Assembly (NCBI RefSeq): GCF_025149915.1
Contig: NZ_CP102278.1
Coordinates: 2,807,001 to 2,871,000, forward strand
Direction: 5' to 3'
DNA: 64,000 nt
From: Coprococcus eutactus
Lineage (GTDB): Bacteria; Bacillota; Clostridia; Lachnospirales; Lachnospiraceae
Position 1 is the stretch's first letter, and every line of letters starts with the position of its first letter. This document shows, piece after piece, positions 45,953-52,711 of this stretch. The notes below the pieces were generated by a model. That model saw only the letters and a program-made list of their open reading frames with translations, did no database searches and was not told the origin of the DNA. The position numbers and the translations under genes were made by a program.

Positions 45953-46789
45953 TCAACCTATCTGGTTTCTGAATTGATCCTTCAATGTGCTCAGCAGGGA
46001 ATCCATTCTCCTGTCATAATCCTCAATATCCCCATGCATTCTGTTGTACACAGCTTTCTGAACCTTGTTGTATATGGACATCTCATGCACATCCTCCTTG
46101 GAATCAGCGATCTCACTCATGAGATCGTCAAGAAATCCCGCTGGCATTCCGCGCTTTCTTATCTCCCTCTGCAGTGTGGCAGTGTCCACAGTTACCGCCA
46201 TGACGCAGAAATATTCTATGAGGGATTCGTTGTTTTTATTCAGCGAAAATGCTCTGATAAAGCACGCTTTCGCCTCCTCTAGCTGGAGATTTCCAGCCAG
46301 GGCAACGCCCTTATTGTGATATATATTTCCAAGGAATTCGTCATATTCATCATGACTTTCCTTGTACTCTATGATCTCATCATATATGGCATCAGCTTTG
46401 ATGTAATGCTTATACATCATGTAACTGTCTGCTCTCCTCTTATCCAATTCATAAGGCTTCAGAGTCCGTATACGCTTGCACTCTCCGAGGAATTCCTTTA
46501 TATCCTCCGTGCCATAGAATTCGCCAAATGTCAGGATCTCCACCATGACATCCTGAATATATGCATTTTTCTGATTGAGCGCATCCACCTTGTCCGCCAG
46601 ATCGTACATCTCGATCTCATCTCTGAGCCATGCTGTGAGTCTGTCAGTCAGATCATCCTTTCCGACCAGAACCATATTGTTGAATATGTAGTAACACAAT
46701 TCCTCATATGTGTATACACTCATCTTGGTATTCAGAAATGTATACGGATTGTCTGCTGTTTTCGTCTTACAAATAATTATTCCACTCAT
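45953..46789 (-). CDS. TPR-like helical protein, third gene of the ATPase operon
   Basis: A 278-residue, mostly helical cytosolic protein. Residues about 110-215 contain TPR-like helix pairs (ADSYMMYKHYIKADAIYDEI, IYHNKGVALAGNLQLEEAKACF, IRAFSLNKNN). No enzyme motif, signal or membrane helix is visible. I recognise no named family. It is the last gene of the operon with the actin-fold ATPase (39-base gap) and the 1188-residue protein, so it probably works with them, perhaps as an adaptor. The gap beyond, to 45910, leads into the valS leader. Confidence 0.75.
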   Translation of the reverse strand: MSGIIICKTKTADNPYTFLNTKMSVYTYEELCYYIFNNMVLVGKDDLTDRLTAWLRDEIEMYDLADKVDALNQKNAYIQDVMVEILTFGEFYGTEDIKEFLGECKRIRTLKPYELDKRRADSYMMYKHYIKADAIYDEIIEYKESHDEYDEFLGNIYHNKGVALAGNLQLEEAKACFIRAFSLNKNNESLIEYFCVMAVTVDTATLQREIRKRGMPAGFLDDLMSEIADSKEDVHEMSIYNKVQKAVYNRMHGDIEDYDRRMDSLLSTLKDQFRNQIG

Positions 46790-46828: not shown

Positions 46829-49018
46829 TTACTCACCGGGATCAAAATGCTGTCCCCTGAGATATGCAGGTATTGTAAACCTGCTCTGCTCCGGTTCGTC
46901 TTCGTCAGAATCCAGATAATCTTCGTCATCATCATCATGAATCTTCATTCCATAGACATCTATGTCTTCATCCTCTGTCTCATCGGATTCTGCCACATCT
47001 CCAACATCTTCCTTGACATCACCCGCATTGTAGACGTACGCCGATGCAGGCTCTGTCTCCGTGATATCTTCATCTACCAGTTCAGACTCCACTGCTTCGT
47101 CTTTTTCCTTGGCGCGCTCTGTCTCCTGCTCATCACCGTCTGCTGCTTCGTCCTCTAACTTCATCTCATCGCTGTCCGCTGCTTCGCTCTCAGATTCCTG
47201 CTCGTCGATGTCTGCTGCGTCTCTCTCAGATTCCTGCTCATCGATGCCTGCTGCTTCTCTCTCAGATTCCTGCTCACCGATGCCTGCTGCTTCGCTCTCA
47301 GATTCCTGCTCATCGATGCCTGCTGCTTCGCTCTCAGATTCCTGCTCATCGATGCCTGCCGTTTCTCCAACTGGTGCCGACATATCACTGTCAGTCACTT
47401 CAGCCTCTGTATCTGCTATATCAACATCCACCTCTTCGCCCTCAGGCTCCGGTGATGCTGTGCCATAATACACAACATCCTCTGTATTGTCACTATCATT
47501 CTCTGCCCTGTATCTTAGGTCATCCAGATCCATGTGTATCTCATGCTTCAGCGCATCCTGTGCGGCAAGCTCCTCCGCCTGTATCCTCTCCTGTCTTTCT
47601 CTCTCAGCCTCGGCATCCCTGTCCACAGGATCCTCACCGATCAGCTCCTCAGTGTCTCCCTCTGCAGCCTTGATCCGCTCATGTTCTATCTTCTTTGCGT
47701 GTTTCTTCTTTATCTCAGATATATCAAATTCTTTTCTGTATATCTTATTTGTAGTAGGATACAGATTGCCAAATCCCATATCCCTTATGACTATCGCACC
47801 CTTATCAGCGCCATAGTACTCAACCTCAATTGATAACTTCGTAGTCTTTGGAGGTCTCGCCGGAAGACCGTATATCTCTATAGTCTCGATATACTCCTCC
47901 TCGGTAAGTATATCCTGATAAACTATCTGTATTCTCCGTGTGTCATCAAGAAACACCACCACTCTGCCTCTTGTGTTAAACCACTCAAGACCTCCATACA
48001 CAATAGGCCAGAATGTGTTCTTCTCATCCATGAGATTGATGCCGATATTTGTCTTGACCGTCTGCTCCGTATCAATGAAATACCGGCTAAGTGATTCCGT
48101 ATACACTCCGCCAAGAGATCTGTAACATGCCCCTTTCGTATATATATTCTGTCCGACAAACACTCTGCGCCCCTGACACAAAACCGTCGCTGACTGTTTC
48201 ATCCAGTTCTCAGAGAACCCAAGTCCTGTTAAAAATACCGATGATATAAACACCTGCTCTGTACACTCTTTTACAATGTCTGCAAATGTCTCATCCATGT
48301 CCTCATGGTATCTTCCAAATCTCCTGAGATTCATTTTGTCGTGATAGTTTATGTGCTGCGTTGTGACTATGAGTGGATATTTTCTCGTCATATCTATTCT
48401 GTAGAAATCAAGTCCAGCTCTGCCAAAATCAAACAATCCCACGCTGTTATTTCTGAGTGGTTCAGGCTGTGCAAATATATAACAGAGCCCGCTGTCCAGA
48501 TGGCTCACTATATTGAACTGGTCATGGCTGAGCCTAAGTGCAGTCTTAAGTCCTCTGACCGCCTGTATTATACGCGGATCAGTGTCCGCCACCGTCACTG
48601 TAAGCCTCTTTATAACAAATCCACCAAGGGTATCTGTAAACTGTTTGATGTGAAGCACAAGCATCTTCACCATCAGATCAGAAGCCTTATAACCTCTCCC
48701 CTCAACTTCTATATTCTCATTTTTTAAAGTGCTCTCATAGATTCCGTCAACTACAGTTCCTTTGTCCTCAAATCTATAAGCTGAGGCCCTTGCACCGACA
48801 CACCATCCTGACAAATCTATAAACTTATAACAGTCATTCTGATTATCACCCATTCTCTTATGATACGCACTGTAAAACATGATGTTTGGAAGCATGTAGG
48901 TGTCCTTTGCCTCCTCATGATATACAGATTCCGGCTCACGCGTATCTGCATTGTAATAACTTAGCTGTGTATATTCCGGTCCCAGATCGAGACCTAGATA
49001 CAACTGTGTGTCAGCCAT
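46829..49018 (-). CDS. Actin/Hsp70-fold ATPase with acidic tail and FtsZ-like C-terminal peptide (DUF5716-like)
   Basis: A 729-residue protein. Residues 1-400 have the actin/Hsp70 superfamily pattern: phosphate-1 loop YLGLDLGPEYTQLSYYN, phosphate-2 loop VGLFDFGRAGLDFYRI and adenosine loop VFLTGLGFSENWM. A beta-rich region (about 330-430) follows, then a charged helical stretch (RKEFDISEIKKKHAKKIEHE). A long acidic, low-complexity tail (about 440-712) includes seven 12-residue repeats of the AGIDEQESESEA type at residues 554-637. The protein ends SRFTIPAYLRGQHFDPGE, which resembles the FtsZ C-terminal peptide (E. coli IPAFLRKQ). From memory the family corresponds to Pfam DUF5716; this is not checked. 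It is the middle gene of a three-gene operon. Confidence 0.82.
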   Translation of the reverse strand: MADTQLYLGLDLGPEYTQLSYYNADTREPESVYHEEAKDTYMLPNIMFYSAYHKRMGDNQNDCYKFIDLSGWCVGARASAYRFEDKGTVVDGIYESTLKNENIEVEGRGYKASDLMVKMLVLHIKQFTDTLGGFVIKRLTVTVADTDPRIIQAVRGLKTALRLSHDQFNIVSHLDSGLCYIFAQPEPLRNNSVGLFDFGRAGLDFYRIDMTRKYPLIVTTQHINYHDKMNLRRFGRYHEDMDETFADIVKECTEQVFISSVFLTGLGFSENWMKQSATVLCQGRRVFVGQNIYTKGACYRSLGGVYTESLSRYFIDTEQTVKTNIGINLMDEKNTFWPIVYGGLEWFNTRGRVVVFLDDTRRIQIVYQDILTEEEYIETIEIYGLPARPPKTTKLSIEVEYYGADKGAIVIRDMGFGNLYPTTNKIYRKEFDISEIKKKHAKKIEHERIKAAEGDTEELIGEDPVDRDAEAERERQERIQAEELAAQDALKHEIHMDLDDLRYRAENDSDNTEDVVYYGTASPEPEGEEVDVDIADTEAEVTDSDMSAPVGETAGIDEQESESEAAGIDEQESESEAAGIGEQESEREAAGIDEQESERDAADIDEQESESEAADSDEMKLEDEAADGDEQETERAKEKDEAVESELVDEDITETEPASAYVYNAGDVKEDVGDVAESDETEDEDIDVYGMKIHDDDDEDYLDSDEDEPEQSRFTIPAYLRGQHFDPGE
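47108..47359 (-). repeat. 36-base in-frame tandem repeats in the ATPase tail
   Basis: Seven units of 36 bases encode 12-residue repeats; five are near-perfect (AGIDEQESESEA variants) and two are diverged. Substitutions such as D to G and S to R are scattered between units, consistent with slippage and drift in a disordered acidic linker. Length variation between strains would be expected. Confidence 0.85.
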
Positions 49019-49144: not shown

Positions 49145-52100
49145 TTAAAGCAGCATCAGGTTTGCATCGAAGAAATGACTATCATACAGGTATGTGTCCA
49201 TAGCCTGTATCAGCTCATGATCATTCCTCGTCTCCTGACTCACAAGCATGTTGTTGATGAGTTCAAAGCTGCTGCCGCCGCCCTTATGGAATGTCTCGTT
49301 CTTCAATATGTCGCTCTCAACGACCACCGAAGTTCCGACAACCCCATCTATCGAATATATGAGCGATTCGCCATGGAACACCACGACCTCCTTCACGTAT
49401 ACCCCCGGTATGATCTCATTCATCCTCTCGGATTTGTAGTTCGCCATACTGCTGCTCTCCTGGCCAAAGCTATAGCTCACCCATACCTGCTTGCCACTCT
49501 CGCCCTTGAATACGACATATGTCTTGAATTTCATGTCACCCGGAAGTTTGACTATCGCTTCAAACTTTCTGAAAAACGGCAGTATCTTGCTGAACTCAAC
49601 AAACTGTCTCACCGTAGTTCTTATCCACTCCTGCTGTTCTTCTGTATATCGTCCTGTCCTGTTGCTGAAGTAATAGAGCAAGCTCATTTTTGATATCTCA
49701 TCCTTTATATTGCCCTTTGCTATCTCAAGGTACAGATCCTCCATTATATTGGAAGGTATCTTCTTGTCCTTTATAAAATACTGATGTGCGCAGTATCTGA
49801 GAAATGCCTTCACAACCATGCCCCTGCTTCTGCCGCGGTAATACACATCAAATATATCATATATAGACTCTATATAACCATCCGCGAACATCATCTGTGC
49901 AAGGATATTCTCCGACAGCATATCGATATTCCTGTAGTTGGAATTTACCGACTTAAACAGATTTGCCATCTCCTCAAGTGAGCCGTTATAATTATTTATA
50001 AGATATGAAAGTATCTTCTGTCCTGCATATCCGCGCCTGTATATATACACACAGATCGATATGAGCAGCCTGCTCTCATCATATCTCTTGTCATCTATTC
50101 CGTACTCAGCGATCTTTATCAGCTCATCTATGTCCACGTCCACATAGCCAAATCTATTCATTCCCTCAAATGCATTCTCGTACATATCAAGGGTTATATA
50201 GTATGTGTTTATCCTGGACGCGTACGATGGATCAACATAATCCAGATCGATCTTCGACATATATCTGCCAAGAATGTCCGCATCAAAGTTCTCGTGGTAG
50301 TACTCCACCATATGGGTGAGAGCCTCCTGCCTTACCCTGTAACTGACCTCCGGACAAAGCACGATATCTCTAGTCAGATTGATCTCTTTCGCATCCCTGT
50401 GGGTAAATATATCTATGTCATTGTAGAGGAACAATAGGTATCTGTAATCCTTGAAGCTGTACTCATGACATATATCTAGATAACTTCTCTCATCAACTAT
50501 CCGCTCTACCCTGTACGGAATTGTACCCACATATCTTCCACCGTTGTCATCGAGCAATGTTATCACAGCAGATGGGGATATGATCTCAACATACGCCTCT
50601 CCATTAACTACCGGCACCTTGACCTCGCCCCCCAGTTCCCCATGGGATACAAGGATTCCTGTTATGTTCTGGTTGTCGCACACTATCTTTCTCTTAAATA
50701 TTATGTTTATGATCTTAGAGGCAAATTCCGGCTTTACCGTTTCGGGGTCAAGGAACTCATCATATATGACTGTGAGATCATCACTCACCTTGCCCTGGAG
50801 TATCATCTTCTCCATGAACCGCTCTATGGCAGGAACAAAATCACGATATACCGACATCTGATCAGCCTTGTTCATGATGACACTGGCATAAATATATGCC
50901 AACTCATCATCTGTCAGCACATTCTTGTAGCTGAAGTATCTGAGTATCGCCTCAGGTATCTCATCATATCGTCTCCTGTCCATACTCCTGATAAAGCACT
51001 CGTTGAGCCCAACATACTTGAGATCCTTCTCTGCAGCATCACTGTAATACCTGTGATATCTAGGATCGTACATCTTGTCTTTGATGAGTATACCGCACAT
51101 CGCCTCAAGAGTCGTTTTATCATGACGCATATCATATATCTGCTCAAGCATCTTAAATGAATGTTCATCAAATGTCTTCTGTCTGGATGCAGTCTTGACA
51201 AATTCCACTATGACATCCTCGGACACGAATTCATTTCTCATGCCCCATCTGAGCGCTGCGATTTCGAGCGGCGCAATCTTCTTCATCATAAGAGGCTGTT
51301 TGTTGAACATATCACATATCTCAAAATAGATCACAGGACTGTTCACGCCTTCGTTGAAAAGCTTCTGTATATCATCATAGAGAACCCATTTATCCTCTGT
51401 ATAACTCACATCCACGAACAACAGAATCCAGAAATAGAAAAGCCTGTTATTCTTACTCGTCTCAAACTTCTCGCGAACCATTATTGCAGTCCTGTCGATG
51501 AGAAATTTTTCTCTTCTGAGCAGTGATTTCAGGTAGCTCAGATAGCACTTCTCCATGTCTTCCATACTAGTAAAGTTGGCATCAGCATCTATTCTGAGGA
51601 ACTCCTGCTCCACAAATTCAGTATGCCCCTCGAGAATCTGCATGTGCAGCAGTCCAAGTCTGTACATTCCATATTCAGGTCTGTATTTTATGAGGGTATT
51701 CAGGGCATTCCTCGTCTCAGCGATATATTTGCCAAGGTCTATCTTGTCTGTTCTGAAGTCTATATATGCGCGTATCAGAGTCTCCTCAGCCCTCTTTATC
51801 GTGAATCTGGTCTGCCTGCTCTTCGGTGTCATCTTGACGACCTCCGGCTTCCTGATACTGACCCTGATCTTCATGTTCTGGTATGTGTTCCATATATATA
51901 TGTATCCCGCAGACTCACCGTCATGTATCTTCTGCGGGTCTATCAAGAATGTTAGTTCAAATGTATTCCCATCAAAGCTGTTCCACTTGAGCACATTTGT
52001 CTCGGGAATAAGGAAATCACAATCTGATGCTATCTTTGTGTTGGTATATCCCCATGTGTTCTTAGCGATAGTCACCGATGCGCGAACAAGCTCCTTCGGC

Positions 52101-52711
52101 ATCTCGACCAACAGATCATTCTGGGCAACCGACAAAGTGAGTGACCTCTTTTTATGTGTATAGACCAGGAATTCTTCCATAGCCTGACCTATTGAAAGTG
52201 AGAGCCCCAACGCGTCGTACACTCTGTGGAGTTTCTCATCCCTGCCTATAAAAGTGCGCACAAAATCTTCACTGCCAAATATCCGTATGGCATCTTCCCA
52301 GTTCTCCTCTGCATAAGACGCAAATTGAAACAGATCCTCAAGCTTTCTGTCTCCCGTCTGTATATACGGAGCTATAACCGTTATGTTATATGGAATTAAA
52401 AATTCACCGCCATCTGTGATTATGTTGATATGACCTTTAAAAGATTTGCCCCGTTCCAGTCCACGGGCATCAAATGAATAGCACACTGTATTTTTTCTTC
52501 CCACATACGTGTGACTCTTGAAATCCAGTATATAGCGGCTGTCGTACACCATCAGCTTCACTGGGCAGCTATTCGTGGTGTCAACCGAAAACTCACCATC
52601 ATACACTGTACCTGCCTCGATATTCAATTCTAACCTGCTGACTGATATGGCAACAACCGGCCTGTCGACCTTGAATTCGCCACGTGCATACTGCTCAACT
52701 ATTCCCTTCAT
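49145..52711 (-). CDS. Very large multi-domain scaffold-like protein (DUF5717-like)
   Basis: An 1188-residue cytosolic protein without signal peptide or membrane helix. Residues about 20-115 are a beta-sandwich-like domain (VVAISVSRLELNIEAG, then HINIITDGGEFLIPYNITV). A second beta region is near 200-300 (EKSYIYIWNTYQNMKIRVSI area). Long helical, TPR/solenoid-like stretches run through about 310-690 and 790-1050. A beta domain near 700-760 and another at 1065-1150 (KTYVVFKGESGKQVWVSYSF) interrupt and end it. I see no catalytic motif. From memory this matches Pfam DUF5717, unverified. It is first in the operon with the ATPase and TPR-like genes. Size and build suggest a scaffold or partner of the ATPase. 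Confidence 0.78.
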   Translation of the reverse strand: MKGIVEQYARGEFKVDRPVVAISVSRLELNIEAGTVYDGEFSVDTTNSCPVKLMVYDSRYILDFKSHTYVGRKNTVCYSFDARGLERGKSFKGHINIITDGGEFLIPYNITVIAPYIQTGDRKLEDLFQFASYAEENWEDAIRIFGSEDFVRTFIGRDEKLHRVYDALGLSLSIGQAMEEFLVYTHKKRSLTLSVAQNDLLVEMPKELVRASVTIAKNTWGYTNTKIASDCDFLIPETNVLKWNSFDGNTFELTFLIDPQKIHDGESAGYIYIWNTYQNMKIRVSIRKPEVVKMTPKSRQTRFTIKRAEETLIRAYIDFRTDKIDLGKYIAETRNALNTLIKYRPEYGMYRLGLLHMQILEGHTEFVEQEFLRIDADANFTSMEDMEKCYLSYLKSLLRREKFLIDRTAIMVREKFETSKNNRLFYFWILLFVDVSYTEDKWVLYDDIQKLFNEGVNSPVIYFEICDMFNKQPLMMKKIAPLEIAALRWGMRNEFVSEDVIVEFVKTASRQKTFDEHSFKMLEQIYDMRHDKTTLEAMCGILIKDKMYDPRYHRYYSDAAEKDLKYVGLNECFIRSMDRRRYDEIPEAILRYFSYKNVLTDDELAYIYASVIMNKADQMSVYRDFVPAIERFMEKMILQGKVSDDLTVIYDEFLDPETVKPEFASKIINIIFKRKIVCDNQNITGILVSHGELGGEVKVPVVNGEAYVEIISPSAVITLLDDNGGRYVGTIPYRVERIVDERSYLDICHEYSFKDYRYLLFLYNDIDIFTHRDAKEINLTRDIVLCPEVSYRVRQEALTHMVEYYHENFDADILGRYMSKIDLDYVDPSYASRINTYYITLDMYENAFEGMNRFGYVDVDIDELIKIAEYGIDDKRYDESRLLISICVYIYRRGYAGQKILSYLINNYNGSLEEMANLFKSVNSNYRNIDMLSENILAQMMFADGYIESIYDIFDVYYRGRSRGMVVKAFLRYCAHQYFIKDKKIPSNIMEDLYLEIAKGNIKDEISKMSLLYYFSNRTGRYTEEQQEWIRTTVRQFVEFSKILPFFRKFEAIVKLPGDMKFKTYVVFKGESGKQVWVSYSFGQESSSMANYKSERMNEIIPGVYVKEVVVFHGESLIYSIDGVVGTSVVVESDILKNETFHKGGGSSFELINNMLVSQETRNDHELIQAMDTYLYDSHFFDANLMLL

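Follow-up and report, generated by a model that had tools for sequence, protein, structure and literature searches.

The DUF5716 protein of Coprococcus eutactus ends in a long acidic tail that carries two short motifs resembling, in the same order, those of the FtsZ tail of its genus: [YF]xGTA[SA]P within the linker and IPx[FY]LR close to the terminus. In the clade that bears the tail, both motifs are kept while the linker around them drifts. The best reading of these sequences is that the tail may dock DUF5716 on proteins that read the FtsZ tail, namely SepF, FtsZ's own core, or ClpX.

Architecture of the tailed DUF5716 protein

The window analysed here is a stretch of 64,000 nucleotides from the genome of C. 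eutactus, which consists of a single contig of 3.11 Mb. It contains, on the minus strand, an open reading frame of 729 residues (46829-49018) whose C-terminal end is SRFTIPAYLRGQHFDPGE. The original prediction, made from the bases of this region, had placed the frame, the acidic linker and the segment IPAYLRGQ as we find them, with exact coordinates. The features referred to below are the following.

46829..49018, minus strand: DUF5716 protein with a long C-terminal tail, 729 aa (PF18980, 289.5 bits)
47723..48604, minus strand: DUF5716_C domain, residues 139-432, the sole recognised domain
46880..47722, minus strand: acidic linker, residues 433-713, poorly conserved except for motif 1 (identity 0.27 over 433-512 and 0.12 over 524-708)
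47124..47359, minus strand: 36-bp tandem repeat within the linker, 12-residue unit, 6.6 copies
47450..47476, minus strand: motif 1, VVYYGTASP, residues 515-523 (the FtsZ of the same genome has RYAGTASP)
46832..46879, minus strand: motif 2, FTIPAYLRGQHFDPGE, residues 714-729 (the FtsZ of the same genome ends IPDFLKKR)
46850-46873, minus strand: IPAYLRGQ, inside motif 2
49145..52711, minus strand: DUF5717 protein, 1188 aa, upstream neighbour (PF18984 and PF18983)
45953..46789, minus strand: TPR-like protein, 278 aa, downstream neighbour (PF07719, below its cut-off)

The score against PF18980, to be compared with a gathering score of 34.7, places the protein in the DUF5716 family. It is not an FtsZ: DUF5716_C is the only domain found, the Tubulin/FtsZ GTPase domain is absent, and the single PF00091 match of the genome is the genuine ftsZ. 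The tail comprises about 280 residues of linker, 39% of them Asp or Glu, and includes the 36-bp repeat, in good agreement with the acidic, repeat-bearing linker of some 270 residues that had been anticipated. Judging from its composition, the linker of the tailed proteins is probably disordered. Near-identical copies of the protein have lengths of 693, 705, 717 and 729 residues, that is, steps of 12 residues, as if the copy number of the 36-bp repeat varied.

The protein had also been described as an actin-fold ATPase with phosphate and adenosine loops. Among the residues of these motifs, G9, D11, D197, G265 and G267 are invariant in all 54 aligned DUF5716 homologues. Positions 13 and 199 are variable, the phosphate-1 glycine at position 13 being G in 14 homologues and C in 37, and position 199 of the phosphate-2 loop being G in 19. 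Sequence searches of solved structures with DUF5716 returned nothing up to E = 10, and a profile comparison with two MreB-like proteins gave a probability of 0.3%. The actin-like identity of DUF5716, resting on short, partly conserved motifs, is unproven; the ATPase label is premature, and ATPase activity is at present putative. With FtsA and the actin-like division proteins DUF5716 has in common short phosphate-1-like and adenosine-like motifs and, possibly, a place of action at the Z-ring. It differs from them in that the FtsA model TIGR01174 has no match at the DUF5716 locus and in that FtsA, in the account given in PMC7118173, binds the FtsZ peptide, whereas DUF5716 carries such a peptide.

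Conservation and distribution of the tail

Conservation along the protein was measured on ten representatives (P0001, eight other database proteins, and L194), obtained from eleven initial ones by dropping P0092, a near-copy of the query, and P0120, which has neither motif, and by adding L194. The mean pairwise identity of this set is 0.82 in the core, 0.27 in linker residues 433-512 and 0.12 in residues 524-708; it reaches 0.87 in VVYYGTASP and 0.84 in the last 16 residues, F-x-IP-x-YLRGQHFDPGE. A conserved end behind a linker that is not conserved, which had been proposed as a check of the prediction, is therefore what the clade displays (0.84 versus 0.12-0.27). A larger set was formed by adding to the query 120 hits listed out of 497. 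Near the end of 117 of these 121 proteins IPx[FY]LR is present; the last 24 residues are identical in 91 of the 121, which are thus near-copies in that stretch. The four proteins in which the peptide is missing are P0097 and P0119, which look truncated, together with P0120 and P0121, and in a further one (P0096) the linker is shortened and motif 1 is absent.

As regards its full domain match and its conserved gene neighbours, the protein resembles the rest of the DUF5716 family (PF18980), from which its tail sets it apart: nearly all the relatives whose ends were read stop straight after the domain. The tail is present in one of 80 neighbourhood loci (L194) and in two of the five genomes of the genus, namely that of C. 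eutactus and G393, the latter being probably the same genome as that of L194. In the family sample, the DUF5716 open frames among the matches listed do not exceed 475 aa, except for one of 527 aa, whose surplus length is an internal insertion and which has no tail; as these frames are known among the matches listed, rare tails elsewhere are possible. As far as relatives were read to their ends, the tail occurs in a single Coprococcus-like clade. The notion of an old, family-wide trait was accordingly rejected, as the orthologues read outside the clade are tailless, and the expected conservation of the terminal peptide in orthologues applies within the clade, where P0120 and P0121 lack it, and not beyond. 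In a tree of 30 DUF5716 cores, 18 tailed rows together with P0120 and P0121 form one group (support 99/100). These two proteins are members of the clade with an acidic linker and neither motif, which fits a single gain of the tail followed by loss of the motifs in both; the tree does not settle their position beside L194, so that they may instead have diverged before the motifs arose.

A search with residues 690-729, which detects relatives sharing 5-residue words and having 0.55-1.75 times the length, found 99 proteins, all annotated as DUF5716, and no other protein bearing the tail. C-terminal extensions of other kinds also occur in DUF5716. Six proteins from other genera of the family (L035, L039, L041, L042, L044 and L051) have a short one that ends GG-xx-G-[QK]-FNS-[ML]-S, and L242, L246 and L259 have short acidic extensions with neither of the FtsZ-like motifs.

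The DUF5716 family itself is widespread in Lachnospiraceae, being present in 388 of the 397 sampled genomes. In a sample of the whole class, 17 of 391 genomes have a match; 16 of them belong to the same family, all above the cut-off, and the remaining one, from another family, falls below it. From 130 relatives in named genomes, 80 loci were retained. Upstream, on the same strand, 79 of them have a DUF5717 homologue, the exception being L270, where the start of the contig is too close; downstream, all 80 have a homologue of the TPR-like protein. DUF5717, DUF5716 and the TPR-like protein form a stable gene trio. In most of these loci the order of the trio is kept between an aminotransferase gene and valS, homologues being found in 79, 80, 80, 71 and 73 of the 80 loci (DUF5716 given; some contigs end early). 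A literature search on DUF5716 and DUF5717, outside which lay most subscription papers and the whole of bioRxiv, yielded no described function. In PHROGs and PADLOC, DUF5716 has no match up to E = 0.1, on which ground a phage or defence family was rejected, and its neighbours have weak matches only.

Likeness to the FtsZ tail

The FtsZ linker is often regarded as a mere spacer. In C. eutactus, FtsZ (434 aa) has YAGTASP at residues 326-332 and ends IKIPDFLKKR; an unrelated FtsZ end, which would have spoken against the original prediction, is thus not what the genome contains. Motif 1 had escaped that prediction; it is a second FtsZ-like motif and, as far as sequences can tell, strengthens what was a real observation. 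The FtsZ proteins of all five genus genomes have [YF]AGTA[SA]P and end IP[DE]FLKKR. Among 29 FtsZ proteins read from other genera of the family, 22 have [IVL]Px[FY][LI] near the end and none has [FY]xGT in the linker. The linker motif is present in 49 of the 120 closest FtsZ proteins listed and absent in 71, which are largely near-copies of one 412-aa form; after clustering at 80% linker identity, 12 of 17 clusters have it. Of the 27 rows of an FtsZ tree, 15 bear the motif, and all of these fall within one group of 17 (98/97, with a rough bootstrap), a pattern compatible with a single gain and two losses; P0136 is an FtsZ that has lost it. The motif occurs in five of five FtsZ proteins of the genus, and the tail in two of five DUF5716 proteins, which suggests that FtsZ had its motif first.

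The sharing of these motifs is uncommon within the genome. A DNA pattern for [FY]xGTA[SATP]P, which misses AGY serine codons, was found at two places in the six frames of the C. eutactus genome, FtsZ and DUF5716. Over the five genus genomes it was found at ten, comprising the five FtsZ genes, the two tailed DUF5716 genes and three places in frames of 25-39 residues, whereas the reversed pattern, used as a control, was found at one. A DNA pattern for the terminal peptide, IPx[FY]L[K/R-like], occurs at 95 places in the six frames of the genome, versus 60 for the reversed control. We read the 93 places that are distinct in context; 22 are strict IPx[FY]L[KR], and of all 93 only those in FtsZ and DUF5716 are located at most 27 residues from the end of a long open reading frame. 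Ten others, at most 27 residues from a stop and with no close upstream stop, were read in longer stretches. Nine of these are overlapped by a longer frame in another reading frame, and the tenth (L079) lies at the end of a 497-aa frame on the opposite strand. At two further places (L054 and L095) the distance to a stop is 29-30 residues. Shuffling the linker of the genome's own FtsZ 400,000 times produced motif 1 in 49 cases and motif 2 in 8, and any exact 5-residue word of VVYYGTASP 914 times; as the motifs were picked after inspection, these counts are guides and not P-values. The motifs of DUF5716 and FtsZ moreover alternate between Y and F and between S and A at identical places. Coincidence in a single peptide is made unlikely by the second FtsZ-shared motif and by conservation across the clade. 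An ungapped alignment of the two tails, dominated by low-complexity matches, gave a best score of 34, which was equalled in 20 of 300 shuffles and is not significant.

In its layout the protein resembles FtsZ and its tail, with a globular domain, a long variable linker, the [YF]xGTA[SA]P of genus FtsZ within it and, near the C-terminus, the IPx[FY]L[KR] that defines an FtsZ-type peptide. The differences concern the absence of a tubulin/FtsZ domain, the spacing of motif 1 (about 84 residues past the domain in DUF5716, versus about 12 in FtsZ, with the end of the FtsZ core taken as IIATG, ending at residue 313), and the linker, which is longer in DUF5716 and strongly acidic (32-45% acidic residues in the tailed proteins versus 6% in the FtsZ linker). 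In addition, the core peptide of FtsZ is normally followed by few, poorly conserved residues, whereas that of DUF5716 is followed by GQHFDPGE, which is as conserved as the peptide itself and has no FtsZ counterpart. This end and the acidity of the linker speak against simple mimicry. Our search of the literature on FtsZ peptide mimicry and related terms, mostly in open-access papers, preprints aside, found no description of such a tail.

These comparisons bear on two alternatives. The late, clade-restricted gain of the tail would suit a tail devoid of function, whether taken over from a copy of ftsZ or added by chance; we judge this very improbable, given that both motifs are kept where the linker is not and that the composition of the linker is unlike that of FtsZ, though capture from ftsZ is a possible origin for a tail whose function was kept. 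It is less far-fetched, if still unlikely in our estimation, that the motifs serve another partner, for instance DUF5717 or the TPR-like protein, their likeness to FtsZ having arisen by convergence towards a widespread type of short motif. The conserved stretch does extend eight residues past its FtsZ-like part, partners within a conserved trio would be natural, and the two tails do not align significantly; but tailless orthologues occupy the same trio, which does not need the tail, and two independent motifs are each common, in this genome, only to FtsZ and DUF5716.

Candidate partners and a model for the tail

FtsA was among the partners originally put forward. No match to TIGR01174 above the cut-off was found in the five genus genomes, one of which is 79% complete, and FtsA is therefore an unlikely partner of the tail. 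The C. eutactus genome has two partial matches below the cut-off, at loci other than that of DUF5716 and MreB-like by inspection, and the four other genomes have partial matches of the same kind. Among 100 genomes of the family, again none passes the cut-off, the controls including model organisms that do. In 39 of these 100 the model matches from its position 2 in a long frame (422-1121 aa) with 75-115 bits, the cut-off being 175.85 (for example G485:C3:31314-32351), and these are possibly long, divergent FtsA proteins; none of this kind was found in the five genus genomes.

The genome does contain a gene for SepF, and, because no FtsA was found in the genus, SepF appears as the likeliest reader of motif 2. 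For C. glutamicum SepF, the conserved FtsZ contacts labelled in PMC7118173 are an aspartate, a proline and a phenylalanine; in a register set by eye, the proline and the aromatic residue are kept, and the place of the aspartate is taken by Lys in the genome's own FtsZ and by Thr in DUF5716, a point against docking by the tail. The Kd given there for SepF and FtsZ of C. glutamicum is 15 uM. B. subtilis SepF is described as binding the C-terminus of E. coli FtsZ as well (PMC3418248). As for motif 1, the FtsZ core is suggested as a partner by the position of the motif, about where the linker element L330-H337 of B. subtilis FtsZ lies, just after the core to which it is reported to bind (PMC12747378), the two being likened by position alone. 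By inference throughout, we therefore favour SepF as the partner of motif 2 and the FtsZ core as that of motif 1.

A shared degradation signal has to be considered as well. In E. coli, FtsZ carries a ClpXP site in its linker and another at its C-terminus (PMC3983244), and by analogy ClpX or another unfoldase might read both motifs, so that DUF5716 and FtsZ would turn over jointly with no docking at the ring. The linker site of the E. coli protein, QEQKPVAKVV, does not resemble YAGTASP, and we hold this explanation to be rather improbable.

We lean, if only slightly, towards a model in which the two FtsZ-like motifs of the tail bring the DUF5716 trio to the division machinery. The acidic tail would act as a docking strap: the terminal peptide would bind a protein that reads the FtsZ C-terminus, with SepF as the first candidate, YYGTASP would bind the reader of the RYAGTASP of FtsZ, perhaps the FtsZ core, and the DUF5717-DUF5716-TPR group would be recruited to the division ring, or else act as a competitor at it. 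What had been predicted may thus stand as a docking hypothesis that is limited to the clade and that favours SepF, the FtsZ core or ClpX over FtsA. A bolder proposal, which we put forward tentatively and consider doubtful, is that, in a clade where no FtsA can be recognised, a protein other than FtsZ, which may have an actin fold, came to imitate the FtsZ tail in two parts. The first would address SepF and the second the FtsZ core or a further reader of the FtsZ linker, the trio being a lineage-specific regulator of division. If this were true, the FtsZ tail would be a portable address label.

All together, the tail offers a first way of testing what DUF5716 does, a protein that 388 of the 397 genomes sampled from a major gut family possess and that, in this clade, may plug into the division machinery. 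It also draws attention to the motif conserved in the FtsZ linker of the genus. Should the tail bind SepF or the FtsZ core, the motifs of the FtsZ tail would be transferable, recruiting other proteins to division.
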